Origin: an uncultured Verrucomicrobiota bacterium | Lineage (GTDB): Bacteria; Verrucomicrobiota; Verrucomicrobiia; Opitutales; Intestinicryptomonadaceae | NCBI GenBank assembly: GCA_949298545.1 | Contig: CASFWX010000018.1 | Location: 1-46,424 of the forward strand | Direction of reading: 5' to 3' | DNA: 46,424 nt | Shown here: positions 44,808 through 46,424 of the stretch, one piece after another | Layout: each line of letters begins with the position of its first letter | Position numbering within the stretch: the stretch's first letter is position 1 | The notes under the pieces: model-generated | The model's input: only the letters and a program-made list of their open reading frames with translations | Databases searched by the model: none | Told to the model about the DNA's origin: nothing | Position numbers and translations under genes: made by a program

Positions 44808-45227
44808 ATGAAAAAAATATTTTTTATGGGCGTTTTGTTCGCTTCTTTGTTTTCGGGCTGCTCGAGCGTAAATATGGTCGAAAGGGCAACTCCCGAGGCG
44901 GAAAAAAGCATGGTCGACGACAAGCGCGTCATTACCGATTCGGGGCTTGACGATATAGTATATATCGCGGGCGTGAACCAAACCCGCACTGAAACGGGCC
45001 TCCTGAAAATTCAAGTCGAGCTCGTCAACCGGACGGAAGCGGCGCGCAATTTTAATTATAAATTCGAGTGGTACGACGCTTCCGGAATGGTCATTGGAAC
45101 TCCCGCTCCGGTGTGGATTGCATCGGTTATCGACGCGGGCGAGGCCAAATTCATATCGGCGGTTGCTCCGTCCTCAAAAGCCGTGGATTTCAGGCTGAAA
45201 CTGCTTGGAAATGTCAGGGGTGAATAA
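44808..45227 (+). CDS. YcfL-like (DUF1425) lipoprotein
   Basis: 139 residues with a lipoprotein signal (LFSGC, Cys18) and a strong AAAGGAGTGAG site. The mature protein is an immunoglobulin-like beta sandwich: LLKIQVELVNRTEAARNFNYKF, then WYDASGMVIGTPAPVW, the characteristic DUF1425/YcfL pattern. In E. coli the YcfL gene is next to lpoB (ycfM), the same order as here. Function unknown. Confidence 0.85.
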   Translation: MKKIFFMGVLFASLFSGCSSVNMVERATPEAEKSMVDDKRVITDSGLDDIVYIAGVNQTRTETGLLKIQVELVNRTEAARNFNYKFEWYDASGMVIGTPAPVWIASVIDAGEAKFISAVAPSSKAVDFRLKLLGNVRGE

Positions 45228-45258
45228 TTTTTCTACAAGTTTAAAAAAAGGCAATAAT

Positions 45259-45816
45259 ATGAAAAAGGCGATTTTGATTTCCATAGTTTTGGCGCACATG
45301 CTCTTTTGGGTTTCAGGGTGCGGTTCAAACGCGACTTATGTCGAAGCGGGAGGGGCGCGTTCGCTCATATCCACAAACAAGATAAACGTTGCCGATTGGA
45401 ACAAGGCGGCAGATCAGCTTGTTAATTCGATGTTGGCTTCGTCGGCTTTTGAGAAGTTTAAAAAGCCCGTTCTCCTGGAGGTGAGCCGCATTGTAAACCG
45501 CACGAGCGATAGGATCGATACCGACATGCTCACAAAGCGCATCACAATAGCATTGAATAACTCCGGGGTTGCAATAGCCAAAACTTCCGATCAATATTCA
45601 AAGGAGCTCGCCGAATACAATAGGTTTATGTCAAACAAAGGAACTGTACCCGCGGCAAAAATTACTATAAGCGGAAAAATTCTTGAGGACAGAGAGAGCG
45701 TAGATAGGGACAGGGAGGTGACATACACTTTTCAAATGTCTATAAATAGTGATGGAGTGATGATTTGGGAAGATCAAGTGCAGATTGCTAAGCAGGAGAC
45801 CCGTTCGCTCTTTTAA
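45259..45816 (+). CDS. LpoB-like penicillin-binding-protein activator lipoprotein
   Basis: 185 residues from ATG 45259, the start that gives a lipoprotein signal (WVSGC, Cys21); an in-frame start at 45205 overlaps the YcfL-like gene. The mature part has the LpoB core: DWNKAADQLVNSMLASSAF, then KKPVLLEVSRIVNRTSDRID, LTKRITIALNNSGV and the C-terminal strand VTYTFQMSINSDGVMIWEDQ. E. coli LpoB is an outer-membrane lipoprotein that stimulates the bifunctional peptidoglycan synthase PBP1b through its UB2H domain. Whether this protein contacts such a synthase here is not shown. It closes the run of lipoprotein genes and ends at a perfect terminator. Confidence 0.85.
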   Translation: MKKAILISIVLAHMLFWVSGCGSNATYVEAGGARSLISTNKINVADWNKAADQLVNSMLASSAFEKFKKPVLLEVSRIVNRTSDRIDTDMLTKRITIALNNSGVAIAKTSDQYSKELAEYNRFMSNKGTVPAAKITISGKILEDRESVDRDREVTYTFQMSINSDGVMIWEDQVQIAKQETRSLF

Positions 45817-45864
45817 TTTCCATTGCGGAAACTTATTTTTAGTTTCCCATTTAAGTTGCGCATG

Positions 45865-45893
45865 CGGCTCCATTCCTTGGAGCCGTTTTTTTT
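45865..45893 (+). terminator. Terminator of the lipoprotein operon
   Basis: An 8-bp perfect stem (cggctcca / tggagccg) with a 5-base loop followed by eight T residues, 49 bp after the lpoB-like stop. Confidence 0.95.
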
Positions 45894-46148
45894 GTATTTA
45901 TTTAATTGCCATATACTTACAATGGTAAAATATCTTGTGTTTCCCATAGAATGCATGAAATAGCAACTGTTTTGCATTATGATTGTATAACATTTTTTAA
46001 AAAATAAAAAAAAACTTGACTCGCGGAGGGGGGGGGGTATGTTCGCCTCTACATAAGAGTAAACGTTATCTTTAAAATTTTGTGAAGGAATTTTTGGATT
46101 AATGTTTTTTTTCTGTGAACTTCCTCATCATCTCTCACATATTATCAT
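45894..46148. other. Regulatory region upstream of the last gene
   Basis: AT-rich sequence without a gene. It includes an A-rich tract (about 45999-46014) that may act as an UP element, the promoter at 46016-46043 with its ten-G spacer, and an untranslated leader of about 100 bp that contains a GAAGGA sequence too far from the ATG to serve as its ribosome-binding site. Confidence 0.6.
46016..46043 (+). promoter_or_regulatory. Promoter with a ten-G tract in the -35/-10 spacer
   Basis: TTGACT (46016-46021), a 16-bp spacer whose last ten bases are all G (46028-46037), then TATGTT (46038-46043). Gain or loss of a G would change the spacer around the optimal 17 bp, as in the phase-variable porA promoter of Neisseria. 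Upstream A-tract is UP-element-like. Confidence 0.6.
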
Positions 46149-46424
46149 ATGGGTAAAAGTATGAAAAATAAAAAGAATATTTTGTTTGCCTTAGGATTGT
46201 TTATTTATGGTCTTTTTGCAAGTGCGGCGAACATTGATTTGTATTACTGGCCCCAGAAACAAGGTACATATGTTTCTTGGACTGCTGGTACGAACTGGAT
46301 GTATGAAAGCGGCGGCGAACAAATAACAACAAACGTTAAAGAACAAATAGATGCTGGAAATACCATCAATATGATATTTGATTGGAATATGCCCGGTTTT
46401 ATTCCAAGCAATAGAACAGATATA
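46149..46424 (+). CDS. N-terminal part of a secreted or surface protein (3' end outside window)
   Basis: The frame is open from ATG 46149 (or the in-frame ATG 46161) to the window end, 92 codons. The start is a signal peptide (KNKKNILFALGLFIYGLFASAA), then NIDLYYWPQKQGTYVSW and TAGTNWMYESGG, which look like the start of a beta-rich extracellular passenger of the autotransporter type. The codon use is more AT-rich than in neighbouring genes (many AAA, ATA, TTT). Because only the start is visible, adhesin or autotransporter is a guess. Its promoter with the poly-G spacer suggests a variable surface protein. Confidence 0.65.
   Translation, partial: MGKSMKNKKNILFALGLFIYGLFASAANIDLYYWPQKQGTYVSWTAGTNWMYESGGEQITTNVKEQIDAGNTINMIFDWNMPGFIPSNRTDI

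Follow-up and report, generated by a model that had tools for sequence, protein, structure and literature searches.

The region analysed in the present study (the window) is a stretch of 46424 nucleotides that makes up an entire contig (C18) of a Verrucomicrobiota draft assembly (G000) of 112 contigs and 1.88 Mb. The features described below lie close to its 3′ end, all on the forward strand. An ORF at positions 45205–45816 matched the LpoB family TIGR02722 with an E-value of 1.2e-21, under the curated cut-off, and we refer to it as an LpoB-like lipoprotein gene. It is followed by an intrinsic terminator (45864–45893), formed by a 9-bp stem (GCGGCTCC...GGAGCCGT) and then a run of eight T residues, which shields the promoter further downstream from read-through of the LpoB-like gene. 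Since this terminator with its T8 tail ends the LpoB-like gene, the secreted-protein gene that lies beyond it probably depends on the G10 promoter.

The original prediction had described this promoter as an A-tract, a TTGACT hexamer, a 16-bp spacer ending in ten G residues and a TATGTT hexamer, and direct reading of the sequence showed that the description was exact. An A9 tract (46006–46014), which is UP-element-like, lies just 5′ of the −35 hexamer TTGACT (46016–46021). The spacer CGCGGAGGGGGGGGGG (46022–46037) consists of CGCGGA plus the G10 homopolymer (46028–46037), which is the proposed slippage tract, and the −10 hexamer TATGTT occupies positions 46038–46043. Thus the tract, a homopolymer of slippage length (at least eight residues), lies within the spacer and is flanked by sigma-70-like hexamers at a near-functional spacing (TTGACT-16-TATGTT). 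Both hexamers are imperfect, which counts against a phase-variable promoter at this site.

A gene with a signal peptide had been placed about 105 bp further on. An ATG at 46149 does lie 105 nt past the −10 hexamer, but the likelier start codon is the ATG at 46161, from which a typical signal peptide, MKNKKNILFALGLFIYGLFASAA, can be read. Only the 5′ part of this gene (46161–46424) is present, as the contig ends at 46424, and so the surface location of the product rests on the signal peptide. The tract precedes a gene for a predicted secreted or surface protein. The 88 residues present gave no match in Pfam or NCBIfam, and no homologue of the protein was found in 13 congeners. A possible leader ORF of 20 codons (MFFFCELPHHLSHIIIWVKV, followed by a stop codon) is located at 46102–46164 on the same strand, and its stop codon overlaps the main start as ATGA; a T8 run (46105–46112) comes directly after the ATG of this candidate leader.

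Poly-G tracts in the same genome and in a congener

The G10 run is the sole run of at least eight G or C residues within the window, and a run of ten G residues arose in none of 200000 simulations of the intergenic stretch (first-order Markov model, with the tract collapsed), in line with the earlier view of the tract as striking. Genome-wide, tracts of at least nine G residues numbered 13 compared with approximately 11 predicted from composition by a rough estimate. This near-agreement speaks against a phase-variable promoter and would favour a functionless poly-G that lies beside promoter-like hexamers by chance, as would a generic scan with the promoter consensus, in which matches stayed at background (three compared with 2.7 expected) and the window site was not singled out. 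Chance is nevertheless extremely improbable in our view, since it agrees neither with the outcome of the simulations nor with the recurrence of the −35/G-tract/−10 order, for which control matches were zero. As the number of tracts is close to the prediction from composition, it is their placement, and not their count, that carries the signal: in this assembly, TAT lay directly 3′ of the tract in eight of the 13 cases, and four of the 13 were placed between −35-like and −10-like hexamers. The consensus scan was uninformative here, and recurrence was therefore chosen as the test. As a check, the original prediction had proposed a search for further TTGACT plus poly-G plus −10 promoters before surface genes; its outcome was strongly positive within this genome, in a sister species, throughout the order and in bacteria at large.

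In the same genome, C86 contains CTTGACTTACTTC-G10-TATGTT, with the −10 hexamer of the window site, upstream of a signal-peptide ORF. C43 contains CTTGACTTACTTC-G13-TATTTT, also followed by a signal-peptide ORF, only the first codons of which are present before the contig end. The whole −35 side is identical in these two copies and the tract differs (G10 compared with G13). A looser copy on C5, CTTGAACTTATTCGGC-G9-TATCGT, has CTTGAAC...GGC as its −35 side and again a signal-peptide ORF downstream. On C87, a G11 tract lies in the part of a PEP-CTERM gene that encodes its signal peptide (L082:963-2643). In the assembled sequence, the start codon of this gene and its open PEP-CTERM frame are not in the same reading frame, and the gene carries a PEP-CTERM tail. 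A homopolymer in coding sequence that shifts the reading frame in this way is phase variation in its classical coding form. C9 or C10 runs with ATA before them on the coding strand were observed on C17 (L085:1790-1799), C48 (L084:1268-1277) and C71 (L086:1466-1474), approximately 60–270 nt 5′ of secreted or PEP-CTERM-type ORFs. Reading of these ATA-C9/10 sites on the coding strand gave no recognisable −35/−10 spacer, so they were rejected as promoters and set apart from the promoter class. The other five tracts of at least nine G residues (C4, C10, C39, C67 and C80) had no link to such promoters.

A congener (G003) has five matches to TTGAC-N-G8+-TAT, of the form CTTGACAAA...-G8 to G10-TAT, each of them before a protein with a signal peptide, and three of the five downstream proteins end in a PEP-CTERM-type tail, e.g. 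VPEPAEWAMIFGAVALGFVAYRRRK. Signal-peptide and PEP-CTERM-type proteins are thus what lies downstream of sites akin to that of the window. Two of the five matches are at contig ends, where the start of C15 and the end of C26 of this congener overlap. The flanks agree with 0 mismatches for 117 nt on the 5′ side of the tract and 24 nt on its 3′ side, but one contig has G9 and the other has G10. Identical flanks around G9 and G10 are the pattern that an assembler yields when the reads hold both lengths; the pair may therefore be the nearest approach to both lengths in one population, sequencing error being the alternative. When eight sites of the two genomes were aligned, the CTTGA of the −35 element was invariant and A- or T-rich runs lay 5′ of it in all eight, and tract length in equivalent sites ranged from 8 to 13 G. 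Within the family, tracts of at least nine G followed by TAT are present in some genomes only, and the TTGAC-type form was found in only two of 14 congeners, indicating that it is not a conserved trait of the genus.

Distribution across the order and across bacteria

A scan of 373 genomes of the order gave 13 pattern matches compared with none for the reversed-pattern control. In a small genome from another family of the order (G091), two promoters of the form CTTGACATnCCTCGA-G9-TAT (L074 and L075) are near-identical, have a spacing of 17 bp and precede two different ORFs with membrane segments. A candidate match in G086, at a contig end, has 20-bp spacing. The matches in G065 and G298 were rejected as promoters: both fall within coding regions, with chance as the probable origin. 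Relatives also had matches with exactly eight G residues before TAT, most of them in coding sequence or unrelated, and these were left uncounted.

Public genomes were scanned with the pattern CTTGAC-N7-12-G9-TAT, which gave at least 126 sites in at least 120 stretches. The matches listed are not independent, because related genomes and paralogues are included, and come from Clostridia, Bacilli, Treponema, Gardnerella, Streptococcus, Rickettsiales, Planctomycetes, Elusimicrobia and others. Among these non-independent matches, 117 of 126 carried T at position 6 of the −10 element, a base that the pattern leaves free (background T 29%, p ~1e-51), and 100 of 126 carried A at position 6 of the −35 element. 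The unqueried bases among the matches listed thus follow the sigma-70 consensus. By a crude hydrophobicity rule, 79 of 108 ORFs downstream of the matches listed were export-like compared with 208 of 718 control ORFs (odds ratio 6.7).

These results bear on the possibility that poly-G is an artefact of sequencing or assembly, for example through no-signal G calls of two-colour chemistry. The fragmented draft assembly, in which several tracts are near contig ends, would be consistent with such an origin. However, an artefact cannot give T at the unqueried −10 position, the window tract lies inside continuous flanking sequence in register with the promoter hexamers, and the matches listed include some from isolates and from complete genomes, such as those of Treponema vincentii OMZ 806 and Gardnerella. 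We therefore regard an artefact as highly improbable.

Counts per genome rose to 41 and 32 sites in two Bacilli MAGs, Lapin-017__bin44 and Lapin-028__bin30 (G373 and G374; L128 and L094; 1.4 and 1.7 Mb), with none for the control. In G373, one flank, TTGACAATACCACCCT, is followed by G9 in 12 copies, by G10 in ten and by G11 in two. Few distinct flanks occur among the sites of either genome, a pattern suggestive of a large phase-variable regulon. The distance between the hexamers peaked at 18–19 bp in the wide sample (among the matches listed) and at 19–20 bp in the two MAGs. Set against the 17-bp rule, a peak at 18–20 bp means either that most assembled copies are off or that G-tract DNA raises the optimum.

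The clustering of lengths is also what would be expected if the tract were a fixed structural or regulatory element (a G-rich spacer, a binding site or DNA prone to form G-quadruplexes) by which a constitutive promoter is tuned, with no functional switching of tract length. The promoter architecture is real, G-rich spacers can alter promoter geometry, tract length is tightly clustered in several genomes (19-bp spacers in 26 of the 32 sites of G374), and the CRP of T. pallidum works with poly-G at tpr promoters (PMC7864442). Against this, copies with the same flanks differ in length, as seen for G9, G10 and G11 in G373, for G10 and G13 in G000 and for the G9/G10 overlap in G003. Furthermore, a lone G10 run gives no ordinary four-run G-quadruplex, and G000 also has G11 in a coding position, where length alone matters. 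A fixed element is thus improbable, and a promoter with a tract of variable length remains the preferred reading.

Proposed slipped-strand promoters and known systems

Promoter switching by poly-G is textbook knowledge for a few pathogens. In the porA promoter of Neisseria meningitidis, poly-G is located between −35 and −10 and the length of the spacer determines transcription, activity being lost when the spacing falls (as summarised in PMC7864442), in agreement with the porA-type spacer having been put forward as a known precedent for phase variation. The window site has in common with porA a poly-G spacer before the gene of a predicted surface or secreted protein, and differs from it in the unrelated phylum and gene, in the presence of several paralogous promoters in one genome and in being known from sequence alone. 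Poly-G is also located between −35 and −10 in tp0126, an OmpW homologue of Treponema pallidum, where transcription is maximal at 17 bp (PMC7864442). The phylum and the protein class are different from those of the window, for which the assembly has a spacing of 16 bp.

We consider it very likely that the window site is a slipped-strand promoter of the porA/tp0126 type, through which the gene downstream would be switched on and off, and, jointly with this, that the genome holds several contingency loci acting on secreted proteins, most of them of PEP-CTERM type, with control exerted at the promoter for at least four loci and through the reading frame for one. Recurrence supports the phase-variable promoter that had been predicted, with switching of the window gene itself a presumption from the motif. 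What was observed is the architecture, its recurrence, the signal peptides downstream and the differences in length between copies with the same flanks. From these we infer an effect of slippage on expression, which state would be on, and a benefit that would lie in surface diversification of a host-associated bacterium. In the proposed mechanism, a sigma-70-type promoter would contain a hypermutable G tract in its spacer, and slipped-strand mispairing at replication would add or remove G residues. Each gain or loss would alter the distance between −35 and −10 by one base per step, and the changed spacing would switch or tune transcription of the secreted protein in a fraction of the cells. 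By analogy with the 17-bp optimum of tp0126 and the loss of porA activity at shorter spacing, the assembled 16-bp (G10) state of the window promoter is probably low or off, and additional G residues would move it towards the optimum.

The kind of element is already known from porA and tp0126, and the unexpected part looks to be the apparent breadth of the class. With its recurrence from this genome and a sister species up to the order and bacteria at large, what was a single motif becomes a class. We give about even credence to the wider proposition that poly-G spacer promoters form a widespread contingency class in host-associated bacteria of many phyla, with regulons of 30–40 switches in some gut Bacilli, an optimum of approximately 18–20 bp through the geometry of the G tract, and many secreted proteins that could be switched independently. 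The occurrence before secreted and PEP-CTERM-type proteins in a Verrucomicrobiota genus, together with the recurrence in bacteria of the gut, vagina, rumen and termite, suggests that commensals diversify their surfaces likewise. As the sequence signature is simple, existing assemblies could be used to identify switchable genes, and raw reads to count their states.

A literature search that covered mainly papers outside subscription did not reveal any account of promoters with a poly-G spacer, either in this order or upstream of PEP-CTERM genes. In Akkermansia muciniphila, which shares with the window genome its place in the Verrucomicrobiota and its PEP-CTERM proteins, phase variation by slippage at homopolymeric tracts has been proposed; unlike that of the window, those tracts are inside genes, two capsule genes included, and the available part of the report mentions no poly-G promoter spacers (PMC3048395). 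A general survey of homopolymeric tracts, as far as its accessible text goes, is likewise concerned with tracts within coding genes (PMC2831843). In Gardnerella, approximately 70% of long G/C tracts are upstream of ORFs and one tract varied in vitro; in contrast with the window site, the account, in its available part, is without a promoter-spacer mechanism and relates to surface proteins of Gram-positive type (PMC11287997). The Gardnerella sites among our matches listed read TTGACTTTTTCGAAC-G9/10-TAT. At two Streptococcus loci (L162 and L182), TTGACAAGTATTTAC-G9-TAT with 18-bp spacing was observed upstream of a large gene for a secreted protein that begins with MNKKKMILTSLASV.
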